A stretch of DNA of 63,438 nucleotides, from the NCBI RefSeq assembly GCF_000186865.1, contig NW_008705574.1, positions 608,737 to 672,174 on the forward strand. The letters are read 5' to 3'. Below the pieces are notes generated by a model. It did no database searches and was not told the origin of the DNA. It was given only the letters and a program-made list of their open reading frames with translations. Made by a program: the position numbers and the translations under genes. Below are positions 45,568 to 55,567 of the stretch, piece after piece (the stretch's first letter is position 1; each line of letters opens with the position of its first letter). This DNA comes from Aureococcus anophagefferens (Eukaryota > Sar > Pelagophyceae > Pelagomonadales > Pelagomonadaceae).

Positions 45568-46944
45568 ATGGACGTCGTCCTAAAATACGTGCCGCGCGAT
45601 GCGGCGCTGCCGCCTATGGAGCTCCGGATCACGCTCCCCGAGAAGACGCAGAAGCGGACGCTCGAAAACCTCCTCAAAGTCGTCGCGAAGACCTACAAGT
45701 CGCGTCACGACACCCCCTTCGACGACGGCGTCCAGTTCTATCACAACAACACGAAGCTCGACGGCGACGCCGTCGTCGGCGAGGTCCTGACGTCAGGCGT
45801 GGAGCTCGTCCTGCGGTCGCGGACGGCGGCGCCGGCCGCGGCGCTCGCGGTCGCGGCGCCGCCGGCCCTCGCGGCCCTCGGCAAGGAGAACGCGCCCCGG
45901 AAGGCGAGGCGCCTCGTGCGCGTCAACGTCATCGCGGACCCGAACTGACCCCACTCCTGGCCGGCGCACCGCATGCTGCGCGCCGCCGTCGCGACCATGG
46001 ACGCGTCGCTGCGCGTGAGCGTCGAGCGGACCGCGTTCTTCCTGAACCCGCAGCTCGGCGCGGCGACGGGCGAGACCATGGCGTCGCTCTTCAAGCGCTA
46101 CTACGGCGACAAGAAGGCGCCGGCGTCCTGCTCCGCGGCGTCGTCGTCGTGCTCCGCGGTCGCGGCGTCGTCGTGCTCCGCGGAGCCGCCGCGATCGTCG
46201 GACAAATTGAAGGTGCACGCGGCCAAGGCCGACGCCGACGCGCAGGCGCTGCGGACCCGCCACGGGCTCGCGGCCCTCGAGGACGGCGTGGCGCCCATGC
46301 ACTACGATTACGACGTGGTCATGTCGTCGAGCCTCGACGCGCAAAGACTCCTCTTGTGGATCGGCTCCGACGAGGCGCGGCGCTCCGCGAACGGCGGGCC
46401 GGCGGCGCGCGAGCGCTACTTCGAGGAGCTCGTCTCCGAGCACTTCGCGCGCAAGGGCGTCTACAGCGACCGAGCCATGCTCGTGCGCTGCGCGGAGCGC
46501 GCGGGCGTCGACGCGAAACGGTGCGAAAAGTACCTGGCCTCGGGCCGCGACGAGGACGCGATCCGGCAGCAGTTCCTGCGCGTGTTTTACGGCTACGGCG
46601 AGGGCTTCTCGAGCATACCGATCACCATGTTCGCCTCAGCGTCCTTCGGCCGGGACGGTTTTCGAGAGCTTTGGGTGGGAAAACGATGAAACAAAGTTAC
46701 CGGCGCACTCGGTAGGTTCGCCTGCGAGGGGCAGGACTACGTCATCCGCGGGAGCTCGCACCTTGAGGACTACGTGGAGGTGCTGCGCCTGTGCGCGGCG
46801 CAGCCGCCGAGCCAGTCCACCAAGAAACCGGCCTGGGAGGACTTGGACGCCAAGGCGAAGCTCGCCGGCGGCTGGGACCGCATGGAGCAGCGCGTCTTCG
46901 GGCAGGCCGACGCCGAGCTCTACAAGCAGCCCGCGGATCGATGA
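45568..46944 (+). CDS. Selenoprotein: ubiquitin-like domain fused to DsbA/FrnE-like thioredoxin domain
   Basis: Exons 45568-46628 and 46716-46944 (1290 nt, 429 residues if the TGA at 45946-45948 is read as selenocysteine, residue 127). Residues 1-90 look like a beta-grasp ubiquitin fold (MELRITLPEKTQKRTLENLL). The thioredoxin domain starts at strand RLVRVNVIADPN, then Sec-Pro-His-Ser where DsbA/FrnE proteins have Cys-Pro-x-Cys, then AFFLNPQLG, the SSLDAQRLL helix and the cis-Pro loop SIPITMFA, in family order. Homology continues across the TGA with no shift. A SECIS lies in the 3' UTR. The terminal TGA could extend by two codons to a TAG at 46951-46953. It is probably a thiol-disulfide or selenol redox enzyme; the substrate is unknown. 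Confidence 0.82.
45946..45948 (+). other. UGA selenocysteine codon at the redox active site
   Basis: TGA in frame between ADPN and PHSWPAHRML. It aligns with the first Cys of the CPxC motif of DsbA/FrnE-type thioredoxins; the resolving Cys is Ser. Confidence 0.82.
46629..46715 (+). other. 87-nt GT-AG intron bounded by 8-bp direct repeats
   Basis: GTTCGCCT occurs at 46629-46636 and 46716-46723, exactly at donor and after acceptor, so removal of one repeat plus 79 bp rejoins TMFAC in phase 2. The repeat geometry is that of an introner, but the 79-bp interior lacks the family ends and core. Confidence 0.8.
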
Positions 46945-46992
46945 TCCGCGTAGCGCGCCGACACTCCCCCCCGCGCGCTCGACGACGACCCA

Positions 46993-47053
46993 CCCCCCGC
47001 GACCCATGACGCGCGGCCCCCAAGACGAGGGGCCGCGCCGATACCGCGGCGGG
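46993..47053 (+). promoter_or_regulatory. SECIS element in the selenoprotein 3' UTR
   Basis: ATGA at 47006-47009 and the opposing CGAT at 47039-47042 form the non-Watson-Crick quartet. Helix II is a perfect 10-bp stem (47011-47020 with 47029-47038). The 8-nt apical loop 47021-47028 has AA at 47022-47023, 12 nt after ATGA. Helix I pairs 46993-47001 with 47045-47053 (eight pairs, one C-C mismatch). This fits the eukaryotic SECIS consensus that recruits SBP2 and eEFSec. Confidence 0.88.
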
Positions 47054-47076
47054 CGATCGTGCGTTTAACAGCGCGC

Positions 47077-50000
47077 CTAGATCAGGTCGACGCGGTGGTG
47101 CCGCGGCGTCGCGGCGCCGGCCGCGCGCGCGTCGCCCTCGTCGCCCAGCTTCGCGAGGTAGACGTCGAGCGACAGGAACATGTGCGCGGGCGCGGCGTCG
47201 CCCGCGCCGCCGAAGGGCGGCAGGAAGAACTCGAGCGAGTCCCGCGACGACTCGAACAATTTCGCGTTGAGGTCCAGCCGCGCCCACGCCACCAGAACGT
47301 CGTCGAACGACCCCGCCTTCTTCGCCGACGGCGCGCGGTCGAAGAGCTCCACGAGCACGAAGCAGCCAAAGTCCAGATCCTCGACGGCGGACTGGAGGCA
47401 CCAGGTCTTGCCGAAGAGGAGGTAGCCCGACCGCGTGAGCGGCGGCGCCGTCGCGTGCTGGACGCGCTCGACGTCCCGACCCTTGGCGTCGCGCACGGAG
47501 ATCGCGAGGAACGGGTGGTGGAGCTTGTCGGCCCCGTCGAGGCTCAGCTTGTCGAAGATCGCGCGGCAGTAGGTGCATTTGTGCCGCAGGGGCGGCGGGC
47601 CGAGCAGCGGCGCGTGCGTCGATTTTTCCACGGAGCCGCCCTTGCGCGCGAGCGCCGCCGCGAAGGACGCGGAGCAGCGGTCCAGGGGCGATCGCCCGTC
47701 GCGAGCCTTGACGCCGGCGTCGGCGCCGACGACGACCAGCGCGCCCGCGAGGTCGTCGTGGCCGTGGTCGACGGCGACGGCCAGCGGCGTGAGGCCCGCG
47801 CCGTCCGGAGCGTCCAGCGCCGCGCCGAACTGCAGCAGGTGCAGCGCGAGCTGCACGGCCCGCGCCGACGGCGCCGTCGCGTCCACGGTCTCGCAGGCGC
47901 AGTGGAGCGCCGCCTCGCCCCGCCTGTTCTTCGCCGCGCACGCCGCGGCCCGCAGCTCCAGGTTCGCGAACGTCGCGTCGCCCGCGCCGACCTGGGCAGG
48001 AAACGAGTGATTCAATTTCGCTTCAACATGAGTGTTCTGCGCGCGCGTGTTCCGGAAAAAGCATCCATGCTTCGAGACCGTTCCGAGCGATGATCGCTCG
48101 TCCAAAGGTCAGCCGAAACGAGTGGAAAACAGCCGAGAGAGGAGCCTTTGAAGTTGGGAATTTCGCTCTCTTTTCCTGCCCTGGCGCCGACGGTGTAGGC
48201 GTGGCAGAGCGCGACGGTCTCCCGGAAGGCGCCGAGCCACTCGAACAGATCCTCGGGCGCCTCGCAGGCGAAGTACATGCGGCCCGCCTTGTTGCCCAGC
48301 TGGAGCATCTGCGCAGAGTGGACCTCGAACGCGTAGGGCTTGACGTCGGAGCGCTTCACGGACGCGTTGCGCAGGCTCAGGGACTTGATGGGCTTCGCGT
48401 CGCTCTTCTTGCCGTAGTAGCTCAGGGACGTGTCGCTGAGGACGCACCACCGCTCCTTCCACGCGTCGCCCTCCTTCCGCTTCCGCATGCGGCCGCAGTG
48501 GACGACGCCCGGCTGCCGCGCGGACGCGGGCGCGGACTCGGCGCGGCTCCGGCCGCCGAAGAAGCGGCCGAAGCGGCTCGTCGTCCCGACCTTCGCCGCG
48601 GCTTTCGCCGCGTCCTCGCCGGACCGGCGGAAGTCGCCGAAGAGCGACGCGCGGCGGAGCTTCGACGGCGCGACGGCGGCCGTCGTCGACGACCGGTCGA
48701 GGCCGCCGAGGATGGCCCGGGCGAGGTCCAGGCGCGTCGCGCGCGCCGCGCAGTGCAGCGGCGTGTCGCCTCGCCGGTCCCGCGCGAGGAGCGCGGCGCC
48801 GTCGAGCCGCGGCAGCAGGAGCTCGAAGAGCGACGCGTTGCCCCCAAAGGCCGCGGCGTGGGCCAGGGTCTGGAGCCCCCGCCGCGGGTGGCGGCAGGTC
48901 GTGAGCAGCGCCCAGGGGTCGTCGCCGGCGAACAGGGGGCTCGACGCGTCCACGGGCACGCCGGCCTCGGCCGCGAGGTCGAAGGCCGCGTCGAGGTCTG
49001 CGAGGAGGTGCGCGGTCCGCAAGATCGACCGGACGAAGCGGCCGAGCGTCGTCGCCGCGCGCCGGCGCGCCTCGGCGCGGCGGAAGGCGCCGCGGCGCCG
49101 CGCGGCCGCCGCGGCCGCGAGCGCGCCGCGCTTGAGGCTCCGGAACGCGACGTACTCGTGGTCGCCGCGCGCCTTGGCCTGGACCATGAGGACGCGGCGC
49201 GGCGTCACGAGGAAGAGCACGCGCCGCGCGAAGGCGGCGAGCGCGCGGAGGCCGCGGCGCCGCGCGGCGACGGCGCGCCTCGCCGCGGCGGCCCGGCGCC
49301 GCGCCTGGCTCCGCGTCGCCAGCCGTTCGCGCTCCGCGAGGTAGGCGACGGCGGCCTCCGCGGCGTCCGCCGCCGCGGCGGCGTCGGCGTCGCGCGCCGC
49401 GCGGCGGGCCGCGGCCTCCTTTTTCGCAAAGCGCGCGCGGCCGAGGCGGTTCTGGAGCGCCGTCGCCGCGGCGCGTCGCCGCGCGACCTCGTCGCGCGCG
49501 AGCCGCCCCCGCGCGGCCGTCTCGAAGAGCACGGCGCCGTAGCGCCGCCGCAGGTGCCGCTCGCGGCCGACGACGGCGCGCGCGGCGGCCTCGATGGCCG
49601 TCGCCGCCCACCGCGCGCGCAGGAGGCCGGTCACGAGGGGCGCCATGCGCGCGACGCTCTCGATCTTCACGGCCGCGGGCACGCGCGCGTCGACGGACCG
49701 CGCCACCTCCGCCTCGAGCGCCGCCGTCGCGTCCGCGGCGGCGTGCAGCGCGTCCTTGGCCGCTTGCGACGCGGCGGCGCCGCCGGCCGTGCCCGCGGCG
49801 GCGTCCGCGGCGGCCGCCGCGTCGCCGCAGGCCGCGAAGGCCTGCTCCGCGTCGAGGGCGAGGCCGACGAGCTCCGCGTCGCTGGCCCGGACGCCGTCGT
49901 CGACGTCGCCGTCCAAAGCGAAGTCGACGCCGAGCTCCGCGTCGGCTTTGGCCTTGGCGGCCGCGAGGCGCTCCGCGAGCTTCATGAGGTCCGCGTGGCC

Positions 50001-53000
50001 CGCGGCGACGAGGGCGTGCTCCTTGGCCTCCTTGTCCTGCACGGCCCTGCGCGCCGCGTCGCCGGCGGCGGCCACGAGCCGCGCGGCCTCGGCGGCCGCC
50101 GCGCGCGCGGCCGCGGCCGTCGGCGTCAGCGCGACGCGCGTGCCGACGTCGGGGTCTTTGGCCAATCGATCGTAGGCGTCGCAGGCCGCGCGCGCGGCGA
50201 CGACGGCGTCGGCGGCCTCCACGGATTTCTTCGACGCCGCGCCCGCGCGCGCGAGCCGCGCGGCGACGGTTTCGGCGGCCTTCGCGGACTCCTCGAGCGA
50301 CTTGCGCGCGGCGTCGACGACCTTGCGCTCCTCGGCGCGGCGCGCGGCTGTCGCCTCGCCGCAGGCCTTCTCCGCGGCCTCGACGCCGGTCGTCGTCCGC
50401 TCGAGCGACGACGAGTCGAGCGTCGTGCCGTCTCCGAGCGCGCGCTCCGCGGCGTCGACGGCCGCGAGCGCCGCCGCGTCCAAATTCCGCACGCGCCCGC
50501 CGAGCTCGGGCCCGCCGAGGCCGTCGCGGCCCGCGCGGCGGCGGCAGGCCTGGAGCCGCGCGACGACGGCCGCGCTGAGCGCCGCGGACGCCGTCGCGGC
50601 GTAGGCCTTGGCCGCGTCGCGCGCGGACGCGACGCCGATGTCGTCGCCGCCCGCGGCGAGGCCCAGGCGCCGGCGGAACGCCGCCCGGGCGTCCGCCGCC
50701 ATGCGCAGCGTCTCCGCGAGGTGCCGGTCGAGCGGCGGGCCCGCCGCCGGCGGCACGTCGCCGCCGGCCGCGTGCTCCGCGAGCTCCGCGGCCGCGGCGT
50801 GGCGCTCCGCCTGGGCCGCCGTCTCGTCGGCCGACGCGCCCTCGCGCTCCAGGGCGATGACCAGCGCCGCGCGCGACGCCTTGGCGTCCGTGTCCTTGGT
50901 CATCTTCACGAGCTGGCCAGCGACGAAGCGCTCCGCGGCCTTGGCCGCGTCGATGACGGACTCGGACCCCACGTCGCCGTCCTCCGCGACGGTCACGAGG
51001 CGCCGCGCCTCCGCGAGCGTCGCCGCGAGGGCCTCGGAGCTCGACGCCCACGCGTCGACGGCCGCGACCGCGGCCTCGCCCGACGCCTCGTGCGACACGG
51101 CCTCCAAACGGACGGAGCTCCGGTCGCGCGACCGCTCCGCGGACGCCAACGCCGCGTGGAGCTTGTCGATGCGCTCCGCCGCCTCCTTGGCCGTCTTCGC
51201 GGCGCGCCGCGCCGTCGACACCGCGGCGTCCGCGTCGTCGTTGGCCCGCGCGACGGCGGCGGCGGCCGCGGCGAAGCGCGCCGCGTCGTCGCCGCCGTCG
51301 TCGACGAGCGCGGCGACGGCCGCGCGCGCGGCGGCGACGCCGTCGCGGGCCGCCGAGACCTGGGCCGCCATGGCTTTGTTGCGCACGACGCCGTCGACGC
51401 GGAACGGCGCGGCGTCCGTCGTCGCGGCCGCGGCGGACACCGCGGCCGCGGCGGTCTCGACGCCGCGCTTCAATGCCTCGACGCGCTTCCGCCGCGCGGC
51501 CGCCGCGGCCTTGGCGCGCGCGGCGTCGAGGTTCGCGAGCGTCGCCTCGCAGGCCTCCGCGGCGGCCGCGGCCTCGGCGACGGCGCCGGGCGCGCCGTCG
51601 CCGCCGTCGCCGACGGCCTTCGCGGCGCGCTTCGACGACTTCTCGAGGCGGTCCACGGCGGCCTCGGCGTCGGCGAGGCTCCCGTCCAGGGCCGTCGAGT
51701 CCAGGGCGGCGACCGCGGTTCGCAGCCGTTCGAGCTCGTCGCGCGCGGACCGCTCGCGCGCCTCGACGCCCGCGAGCGCGTCCTCGCAGGCGCCCTGGCG
51801 CGTCTCCCGGAGCGCGGCCAGGGCGGCTTCCGCCGCCGCCGCCCGGGCGTCGACGGCCGCGGCGGCGTCGTCCGCGGCCCCGGCGGCCGCCGCGGCGTCC
51901 TCGGGCGCGGTGGCCTTGGCGAGCGCGTCGTCCGCGGCCCGCGCCGCGGCCTCGGCCGTCTTCCTCGCCGCCGCGCCCGCGGCCAGGGCGTCGTCGAGCG
52001 CCTTCCGCGCGGCGTGGACGTCCGCGCGGGGCTGGTCGCCCTGCTTCTCGAGCGCCGCCGCGGCCTCGGCGACCCGCGCGAGGCGCGCGGACGCGGCCTC
52101 GAGCGAGCTCGCCCGCGTCGCCGCGGCGCCCTTGAGCGCCGCCACGGCCTCGAGGTCGCGCGCCGCCTTGGCCTCGGCCGCGGCGCGCGTCGCGCCTCGG
52201 AGCGCGGCGACGGCGTCCGCGGCGGCGTCGAGCGCGGCCTTGGCCGCTCCGTACTTCTCGCCCATGGCCGCGTCGCCGCCGCGCTTCTGCCAGGACCGCT
52301 CGCGGGCCTCGCGCGTCCGCGCGGCGTCGTCGAGAGACGTCGCCGCGGCCGCGACGGCGGCGTCGCACGCGGCGGAGTCCGGCGCCGCGCCGGCGTTCTT
52401 CGCGACGGCGACGGCGTCGTCGCGGTCCTTCCTTAAAGCCGCGAGCCGCCGCCGCAGCGCCGCCTCGTCCTTGAGCCGCTTCTTCCGCCGCCCGGCTTCC
52501 CCGCGCGCGCGCGAGCCGCGGATCAGGCTCTGGAGCGCCGAGAAGCCGCGCTTCGCGGCTCGGAACCGCGTCCGCGCGTACTTGCCCGCGCACTTTGCGT
52601 TGATCTTCGTCGCGAAGGCGCCGTAGAGGGCGTCGACGGCGGCCTGGAGGTCCGCCTCGCCCGCCGGCGAGAGGAAGACCTTCGTGTTGCCGATCTGCCC
52701 CCGCGACGGGTCCAAGTGCTTGGCGACGATGGTCTCGCACGCGCGCCGGAGCGTCGCGGCGTCGCAGGCGTCGGGCTCGGGGAAGCCGAGGAAGGCCGTG
52801 GACCCGGCCCGGCCGACGCCGTTGCGGCCCAGCGCCTCGTACTTGGTGAAGAACGCGAGGAACTCGACGCGCGTCGGCAGGCCCTCGCGGCGGATGCGCA
52901 CGACCTCGAGCGCCCCCGAGCAGCGGAGCTGCTTGACGACGAGCTGTTCGCTGTAGGCGCCGGGCTGCTTGCTCGAGTTGGGCTTGATGCACTTGATGTA

Positions 53001-55567
53001 GTGGGGCGACGTCGTCGCCAGGATCGCGACGAGCTCCTCGAGCTGCGTTCTAAATTTCTTCGACACGGTCTGCCCCGCGGCCATCTTCTTCTTGTCCCGG
53101 GGCCCGGCGTCGCGCGCGATGGGTTCGCCGTCGATGCGCCCCGCGCCGGCCTCCGGCGCGCCGGGGAGCCGCAGGCAATGTCTCAAAAACCCGTCGTCGG
53201 ACGCCTCGACGGCGTCCCGGAGGTCGTGCGCGAGCGCGTCGTTGTTCTTGACGATCCAGCCGGAGACGTCGTAGTCGACGGCGCCCGCGTAGTGGCGCAG
53301 CTGGAAGTGGAGGCCGTCGTCGAAGCGCGGCTTCGCGTACGCGCGCGGCTTGCCGCCCCTGGGCTCGGGCGTCGCCGCGTGCGCGTCGTGGTAGGCCCGG
53401 AGCAGCGCTTTGTCGTCGGGTTTGCGATGGAGCAGGCCGTGCTCCTCGAGGATGGGGAAGAGGCCCGCGGGCTTCGCGCCCGTGACGACGTCCACGAGGT
53501 CCCGGTTGTCGTCGAAGGCCACGTAGCCGGGGTCGAGCCCCTCGGACCTGTGTGGAATTCAACCACTGGTTTGGGTGGTCCTGACCAAACTTCAGAATTC
53601 TCTAGCTCGATCAAATCGAAGTCGATTCGGCTGATTTTTGGACGAATCGATTGCTCTCGTCGAGTTCTCGAAGCACAGCTGAAGAGCTTGCGTCGAAACT
53701 GTCGCATATGCGCACATTGAAGTCGGGTTGAAGATTTGAATTCCACACAGCCTCGGACTCGTAGACGGCGCGCTCGCGCTCGAAGACCGTCGCGTTGAAC
53801 TGGCGCTGGAGCATCTCGTTGGCGAAGTTGATGCAGAGCTGCTCGAAGGAGTTCGTCGGCAGAATCTCGAAGCCGAAGATGTCCAGGATGCCCACGAAGG
53901 GCTCGAAGGTTTTGGAAGCGACGTTGCGCCCGTGCTCCGCGTTGAGCTTCCGCAGCAGCCAATCGAACAATGCGCCGTAGAGGAACTTCACGAGGGCGTC
54001 GGCGTTCTCCTTGGCCTCGCGGTCGCCGTAGGGGATCATGACCACGGACCCGCGCGCGGACGACTTCGAGTGGCTCCGGAGCTTCGCCATAAAAACGGCG
54101 CCGTCGAGGCCCAGCGCGCGCGCGACGGCGTCGACGTCGCCGCCGACGGCTACGAGGCCCGTGTCGTCGGCGCAGGCGTCGAAGGTCAGCGCGCCGAGCC
54201 GCAGCAGCCCGCCGACGAGGTCCGCGACGCGCGCCCGCTCCTCCTGTGAGCAGCCGCAGCTCGCCTGGGCGGGAACAGAGTGATTCAACGTCGCTTCAAC
54301 GTGAGTGTTCCGCGCGCGCGCGTTTTCAAAAAAAGCATCCACGCTTCGAGACCGTTCCGAGAGATGATCGCTCGTCCAAAGATCAGCCGAGACGAGTAGA
54401 AAACAGCCGAGATAGGAGCCTTTGAAGTTTGGAACGTCGCGCTCTTTTCCCGCCCCGCAGCTCGCGAGGCCCCCGTCCGTGACGTCGAACTCCTTGGCGT
54501 CGTCGACGGTGTGGTGGTCGTCGATCTCCGTGACGCCGCCGGCGACCAAGAGCGGGAAGTCGTCGAGGGAGTTGTCGGGCAGCGCCTTCGCCTTCACCTG
54601 TGCGGGAAACAACCAGTGGAACGCCCTGTCCGGCAAAAACTTCAAACCTCTCGAGCTCGGTCACATCAAAGTCGATTCGGCTGATTTTTGGACGGATCGT
54701 TTTCTCTCGGAAAGTTCTCTCGCGTCGAAACTGTTCGCTTTCGAGCATGTCGAATTCGTGTTGCATATTTTTGTTTCCCGCCCTGGCCTTCACGAGCTGG
54801 TAGAAGTAGTGGTAGGACCGCTCGCCGGCGTCGACGGACGCCAGGCGGCTCTTCTCCAACAGGAAGTGGTCCGTCCGCGCGCCGGCGATGCGCCAGTCGT
54901 CGTCGTAGACGAGGCGGATGTACTTGCCGAAGCGGCTCGAGTTGTCGTTGCGTATCGTTTTGGCGTTGCCGAACGCTTCCAAAATCACGTTCGACACCAT
55001 GAGCACGGCGTCGACGTCCACGGCGGCCTCCGCGTAGGCGTCCTTGCGCGCCGCGGACAGCGCCAGGAGGAACGCCATGACCTTCTTCGACGCCTCGGTC
55101 TTGCCCGCGCCGGACTCCCCCGAAACCACCACGGACTGGTTCACGCGCGTCGCCCGCACGGCCGCCTGGGCCCTGCGCGCGATGCCGTAGACGTGGGGCC
55201 GCGACGCGTCCATGGCCTCGAAGGCCTCCTCGTCGTCGACCGCGGGCAGGTCGTAGAGCAGCGGGATCGACTTGTACGGATTCACGGACACGAGCACGTC
55301 GCCCGTGTAGGTGTAGATGGCGTCGCGCTTGTAGCGCCGGCCCAGGGCCGTCAGGAGCGGCGCCTCGTGGAGCTGGTTCATTTTTGCGAGGTCGTCGATG
55401 TCGCCGTCGTGGGACGGGTCCCAGCGGGCGGCTTTGGCCTGGTCCAGCGTCTCGTGCTGGCCCTCGGCCGTGGTCACCTCGACCGTGCTCTGCTTCCAGG
55501 CGTCGACGGTGGCGAGCTGCCAGACCTTGGTCTTCGACGGCACCCAGACCTTGTCCGCGTCGGCCAT
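47077..55567 (-). CDS. Giant myosin with PH, ankyrin and C2-like tail domains
   Basis: Exons 55567-54794, 54597-54466, 54264-53759, 53547-48192, 47991-47077 (7683 nt, 2560 residues; phases 0,0,2,0). The motor has the P-loop GESGAGKT (150-157), switch I NDNSSRFGK, switch II DIFGFE and the actin-binding region near KKFRTQLEELVAILATTSPHYIKCIKPN (broken here as motif LEELVAILATTSPHYIKC). After IQ motifs comes a very Ala/Arg/Asp-rich helical rod of about 900 residues, more IQs, ankyrin repeats (about 2010-2090), a PH domain (about 2150-2250), further ankyrins and a C2-like domain (about 2395-2555). PH and C2 suggest membrane cargo. Four introners interrupt it, three of them in the motor. Confidence 0.87.
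47992..48183 (-). mobile_element. Introner 11 (family A) in myosin gene
   Basis: 192 bp. Duplication GTCGGCGC in transcript sense (48184-48191 and 47984-47991). Intron is GT-AG, phase 0, rejoining CHAYT with VGAGDATF, between the PH domain and the ankyrins. Sense orientation. Confidence 0.94.
53548..53750 (-). mobile_element. Introner 12 (family B) in myosin gene
   Basis: 203 bp with perfect ends CTGTGTGGAA and TTCCACACAG. Duplication GTCCGAGG in transcript sense (53751-53758 and 53540-53547). Intron is GT-AG, phase 2, rejoining VYESE with GLDPGYV in the motor. Confidence 0.94.
54265..54457 (-). mobile_element. Introner 13 (family A) in myosin gene
   Basis: 193 bp. Duplication GCGAGCTG in transcript sense (54458-54465 and 54257-54264). 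Ends CGGGGCGGGA and TCCCGCCCAG. Intron is GC-AG, phase 0, rejoining GGL with ASCGCSQ. Only a 132-nt exon separates it from introner 14. Confidence 0.93.
54598..54785 (-). mobile_element. Introner 14 (divergent family C) in myosin gene
   Basis: 188 bp. Duplication GTGAAGGC in transcript sense (54786-54793 and 54590-54597). Ends CAGGGCGGGAAA and TTTCCCGCACAG, mixing family A-like and B-like termini. Core shared, rest divergent. Intron is GT-AG, phase 0, rejoining YQL with VKAKALPD. Confidence 0.92.

Follow-up and report, generated by a model that had tools for sequence, protein, structure and literature searches.

Gene structure and the in-frame TGA

The 63-kb window of Aureococcus anophagefferens DNA considered here (the whole stretch analysed, C14:608737-672174 of a 49.05-Mb, 86-contig genome) harbours a gene for a protein with a DsbA/FrnE-type domain, in which an in-frame TGA (45946-45948, residue 127) is strongly predicted from the sequence to be read as selenocysteine (Sec). 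The coding part starts at ATG 45568 and, after the removal of one intron, ends at the stop codon TGA 46942-46944; a second in-frame TGA (46687-46689) sits within the intron. Apart from the TGA at residue 127, the frame is open over 433 codons. Translated with TGA as a residue, it reads MDVVLKYV...VNVIADPN-U-PHSWPAHRM..., which gives the active site U127-P-H-S130 (Sec-Pro-His-Ser). The GC content of the window is 66-81% (2-kb blocks), and since long chance open reading frames (ORFs) are frequent at such values, homology rather than ORF length was taken as evidence. The features of the locus are as follows.

45568..46640 (+): exon 1; start aligned with the Met of the paralog and with environmental ORF P0010
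45568..45822 (+): N-terminal module (residues 1-85), conserved in the paralog and perhaps ubiquitin-like (weak Pfam match, low-confidence model)
45904..46941 (+): DsbA/FrnE-type domain and C-terminal tail, spanning the intron
45946..45948 (+): predicted selenocysteine 127 (in-frame TGA), aligned with the catalytic Cys of FrnE-type proteins; P0010, P0011, P0012 and P0014 end one residue earlier
45955..45957 (+): Ser130 (TCC) at the resolving-Cys place of CXXC, by alignment with the CPWC of P0052
46618..46620 (+): presumed cis-Pro of the thioredoxin fold (SSIPIT), an invariant Pro in the alignment, with a strand following in the model
46629..46636 (+): target-site duplication, copy 1, GTTCGCCT
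46637..46715 (+): introner element, 79 bp, the source of the intron (genome copies, 8-bp flanking duplication)
46641..46715 (+): predicted intron GT...AG, 75 nt (MFASAFACEG in P0002, published introner pattern)
46716..46723 (+): target-site duplication, copy 2, GTTCGCCT
46716..46944 (+): exon 2 with stop codon TGA 46942-46944
47006..47041 (+): selenocysteine insertion sequence (SECIS), with ATGA 47006-47009, stem 47011-47020/47029-47038, AA 47022-47023 and GA 47040-47041

The genome search with the full protein led to six matches, one of which spans residues 1-357 of the query in a single frame with one TGA inside; the remaining ones were exon 2 apart, a paralog on contig C12 in two frames, a relative with UPNG at the active site (30%) and one chance-level match. 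Homology in one frame on both flanks of the TGA, which the initial annotation had already claimed, means that the parts before and after this codon belong together. The active site described there was recovered as well: the predicted Sec stands at the first catalytic position of the FrnE/DsbA domain (alignment with the CPWC of P0052, fold offset to FrnE Cys22), and Ser130 takes the position that a resolving Cys would have. The domain scored 26.6 bits with DSBA (PF01323), a narrow margin over the Pfam cut-off of 25.6, and its predicted model matches the FrnE fold. A first AlphaFold2 (AF2) model, built for the full length from a poor alignment, reached a pLDDT of 45 and had no PDB match at E <=0.001.

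The downstream part of the gene is 99% identical to the A. anophagefferens protein SO694_000056115 (P0002). The N-terminal piece retrieved five proteins, four of which (P0010, P0011, P0012 and P0014) end exactly at ...NVIADPN; in the model of the fifth, P0013 (NCBI JL721_2801), the TGA region is spliced out and residue ~80 is joined to LGAATGETM. The domain retrieved eight proteins, all beginning downstream of the TGA: P0003 is the window's own ORF, P0002 begins at Met 45973, and six of the seven other domain matches begin at the same or an aligned Met. In environmental as in public ORF sets the gene is thus interrupted at one and the same residue, and the expected mis-annotation by standard gene models is indeed found, with public models either beginning after the TGA or splicing it out. 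The Aureococcus DsbA-type TGA gene models SO694_000056115, JL721_2801/2800 (P0013, P0019), P0015 and P0018 are of these two kinds. Near-identical environmental pieces (P0004, P0010) retain the gene.

The predicted intron derives from an introner. The element has at least 40 further matches in the genome (the best by E-value 85% identical, the top identity 93% over a shorter stretch), is flanked by a target-site duplication and carries GT...AG borders that leave the frame open. An exact 8-bp duplication was seen at the ends of one (L004) of seven other copies inspected, the others having shorter or shifted repeats or no exact ones. The introners of Aureococcus sp. were described, in the part of the source available, as carrying both splice sites and adding 12 bp (4 from the element and 8 from the duplication) to the transcript (PMC9860276); in its 8-bp duplication, copy abundance and donor 4 bp inside the element the window copy is an ordinary one, with no difference noted. 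Removal of the intron 46641-46715 yields 433 residues. An alternative donor at 46629 (intron 46629-46715, 87 nt) also keeps the frame and would produce the length of 429 residues given initially, when no introner-derived intron was described, but the NCBI model (MFASAFACEG in P0002) fits the published 12-bp pattern and favours 433.

The N-terminal module is fused to the domain in both the window gene and the paralog and is 70% identical between them over 82 aligned residues, compared with 48% for the part after the TGA. The fusion reported initially therefore stands, together with its conservation in the paralog, while the ubiquitin likeness is plausible but unproven: the match to Pfam Rad60-SLD (E 0.18) lies below the cut-off, and the beta-alpha-beta-beta-beta order appears in a low-confidence model (block pLDDT 37-58). 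Comparison with ubiquitin-like proteins by hhalign gave no significant match, and neither did a PDB profile search. In the shuffle test against ubiquitin the z value was 1.6 for the window gene and 3.3 for the paralog (1.0 and 2.0 against NEDD8). The module ends without Gly-Gly and so would not be conjugated; it is probably a docking domain.

SECIS element and selenocysteine machinery

The 3' untranslated region contains a near-ideal SECIS, as had been proposed, starting 61 nt past the stop codon, with ten perfect base pairs in the stem and AA exactly 12 nt after ATGA; the fold of 46985-47065 has a z of -2.94. Because a loose scan of the window returned 39 + 35 matches, only stricter forms were counted. 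The strict motif (RTGAC, >=8 contiguous pairs, CGA), searched on both strands of the window and compared with 200 first-order Markov re-samplings in 1-kb blocks, occurs once, at the SECIS site, against a re-sampled mean of 0.045 (0.015 at >=10 pairs), and the element is therefore not a product of chance. Among 46 genome loci this motif was confined to places with TGA-bearing genes, counting L013/L020, where the TGA was recognised later.

A common criterion, which asked for RTGAC and CGA with a single hairpin of >=9 pairs, an energy of -16 kcal/mol or better and a distance of no more than 300 nt from the stop, was applied to 17 TGA-bearing genes of known selenoprotein families, namely GPx, Rdx, MsrA and eight DsbA-superfamily genes including that of the window. 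TGA was present in 3/8 genome matches of GPx, 3/5 of Rdx and 4/15 of MsrA; three of the four MsrA genes entered the set, the match on C38 being left out. Such an element was found in 15 of the 17 genes, at +64 from the first base of the stop in the window gene and at +63 in the paralog. The two without a score are L010, where the stop was misplaced in the scan and a hairpin is visible at 2126, and L014, where a variant ATGAT...GGA lies at 2515, 24 nt from the stop's first base. On both window strands the criterion gave five matches including the true element, or 0.012 per 300 nt.

Rfam SECIS_1 had no match in the whole genome, including five control loci with TGA-bearing selenoprotein-family genes (0/5), so that this model appears blind here. 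The local SECIS-like elements (e.g. L033:1834, L034:1312(-), L042:1949) are of a very GC-rich ATGAC/GTGAC...CGA form that SECIS_1 does not detect; MAFFT did not align their stems, and no covariance model was therefore made. The two components of the Sec machinery that were searched for, a tRNA-Sec gene and SepSecS, were both found in the genome. Taken together, the frame running across a TGA at the place of the FrnE/DsbA catalytic Cys and an ATGAC-hairpin-CGA element like that of other TGA genes lead to the prediction of Sec, which tRNA-Sec would insert at the UGA as directed by the SECIS.

DsbA-superfamily relatives and the paralog

In all eight DsbA-superfamily genes found, the window gene included, the codon of the first catalytic residue is TGA, and in six of them the resolving Cys is absent. 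The absence of this residue, initially regarded as unusual, is thus real in the window gene and is not a one-off. The active sites read as follows.

UPHS: window gene
UAHF: paralog, L023 (rests on an intron model)
UYWA: L011
ULWA: L012
UPHG: L014
UPNG: L020
UPWC: L009 (rests on an intron model)
UPxC: L010 (rests on an intron model)

The UPHG protein (L014:1400-2493) has a Cys three residues before the Sec (CTSU), and its C-terminal stretch looks SH3-like by eye. A genome-wide search with PF01323 gave seven matches without the window gene among them, and further members of the superfamily may therefore be missing. In viral contigs, 31 matches to a protein pattern included no relative; a DNA pattern matched three contigs, presumably by chance.

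The paralog on C12 aligns in two frames (residues 1-138 at 62%, residues 128-419 at 49%). Its genomic sequence runs DPN-TGT..., and a 55-nt intron (L023:1178-1232; C12:368077-368131) would join T|GA to give DPN-U-AHFWP, so that its UGA may be formed by splicing only. On this splice model, 18 of 25 residues are identical to the window protein within 12 positions either side of the TGA. A second in-frame donor 12 nt further on (L023:1190), in accordance with the published introner pattern, would instead give DPN-CRAQR-AHFWP, i.e. a Cys (TGT) and four residues. The near-identical N-terminal ORF P0014 ends at DPN, which implies a stop directly after DPN in its source, as would result from the first splice or from an allele without the intron. 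The intron resembles an introner at its ends only (by eye), with no flanking duplication seen; its start gave 64 genome matches (<=2 mismatches) against 56 for the reversed control, hence no clear repetition. No split Sec codon was reported among the literature titles and abstract openings listed. Third-codon-position likeness of the paralogs is 0.73 up to the TGA (45568-45945 vs L023:820-1177) and 0.58 after it; the higher value could be due to gene conversion.

Sec-containing DsbA proteins are already known, mostly as UxxC, and the UxxS of the window protein is a variant of this arrangement. In the parts of the sources available, the motif is given as UxxC (PMC1088965, PMC2874816) and also as UxxV (PMC2398784) and DxxUP (PMC13188914), and algal, marine invertebrate and bacterial DsbA/FrnE selenoproteins likewise place Sec first in a DsbA-type domain (PMC7539508, PMC2874816, PMC6627142). 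The window protein differs from the published UxxC members by the Ser, the fused N-terminal module and the lack of a tail Cys. Neither a UPHS selenoprotein nor a ubiquitin-like/DsbA selenoprotein fusion was mentioned among the literature titles and abstract openings listed; the window gene may be one of the 59 published Aureococcus selenoproteins. On the other strand, a long adjoining ORF (48012-53522, -) resembles by eye a protein of the myosin type that has ankyrin- and PH-like portions.

Predicted catalysis and alternative explanations

The explanation favoured here, with a probability of roughly 0.6, is a one-frame selenoprotein in which the TGA is decoded as Sec in a SECIS-dependent manner and which likely works with a single selenol. 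Inspection of the conserved start by eye showed no signal peptide, and a cytosolic location seems probable. Sec127 would attack a disulfide, a glutathione mixed disulfide or a sulfenate, and resolution of the resulting selenenyl-sulfide would fall to an outside thiol, with glutathione the likeliest, as Ser130 replaces the resolving Cys; such resolution characterises catalysis of the monothiol-glutaredoxin type. Ser130 could hydrogen-bond the selenolate. Deinococcus radiodurans FrnE (DR_0659) has Cys22-X-X-Cys25 and a C-terminal CXXXXC, a motif shared by many FrnE members, whereas the window protein has Sec-X-X-Ser in place of CXXC or UXXC and a tail which reads QADAELYKQPADR, without Cys. Relatives retain a C-terminal (D/N)CGGLLK cysteine, which could act like the C-terminal cysteines of FrnE; its absence from the window copy again points to an outside thiol. 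One-selenol, thiol-resolved chemistry is thus suggested by the absence of both the second and the tail cysteine and by catalysis through the first Cys alone, as described for DsbA in the part of the source available (PMC2874816). The protein would most likely be a cytosolic one-selenol disulfide reductase/isomerase.

Several results weigh against this explanation. The strict SECIS motif was present at only 6 of the 11 further loci that were classed as selenoprotein genes at that point, and the 15/17 score depends on a laxer hairpin form than the strictest one used on the window. Rfam scans of the window and of 46900-47150 gave no SECIS match, and the AF2 model includes the intron read through as protein. 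The dN/dS (ratio of non-synonymous to synonymous substitution rates) between window gene and paralog is 0.47 before the TGA and 0.90 after it (NG86; dS is unreliable in GC-rich codons), and this pair alone therefore shows no strong constraint downstream.

The main rival, itself unlikely, is a selenoprotein with a glutathione-transferase-like role (transferase/isomerase of the kappa/HCCA type). Glutathione transferase kappa has a catalytic Ser where the window protein has Sec, which would then replace it; its fold score for the window model is lower. A decaying selenoprotein copy, with Sec kept and function fading after the loss of the tail Cys and the gain of the introner, is quite improbable: the missing tail Cys and the dN/dS of 0.90 agree with it, but the frame is open save for the TGA, the environmental pieces P0004 and P0010 keep the gene and the SECIS is intact. 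Even less credible is a true stop at 45946, with a short N-terminal protein followed by a separate gene from Met 45973 as in SO694_000056115. The starts shared by the domain matches would fit, but decoding of TGA as Sec is beyond standard ORF callers, and the fold of the downstream product would be left without its first strand and its active site; moreover, the sequence on both sides of the TGA is conserved in the paralog, and a SECIS follows the stop codon. Removal of the TGA by an intron, as in P0013, is the least likely, as that model deletes the catalytic motif along with the linker and the first strand, the four remaining N-terminal ORFs continue to the TGA, and a genome search with 45760-46110 gave nine matches (self, the paralog and seven short ones within query 3-158, before the TGA) and no introner-like repeat across it.

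If the selenoprotein explanation is true, a conserved redox enzyme of this alga has its catalytic residue lost or deleted in the public gene models, and the paralog represents a natural case of an intron inside a predicted Sec codon. That the whole DsbA/FrnE family of Aureococcus was converted to Sec and mostly dropped the resolving Cys, with two members bearing a ubiquitin-like docking domain and with splicing of the paralog able to switch between Sec and Cys, is a rather doubtful extension. Much of one enzyme family in this alga likely runs on a single selenium atom, and the eight TGA-bearing DsbA-superfamily genes, mostly without the partner Cys, suggest that selenium enables an enzyme of the two-cysteine kind to function with a single reactive atom.
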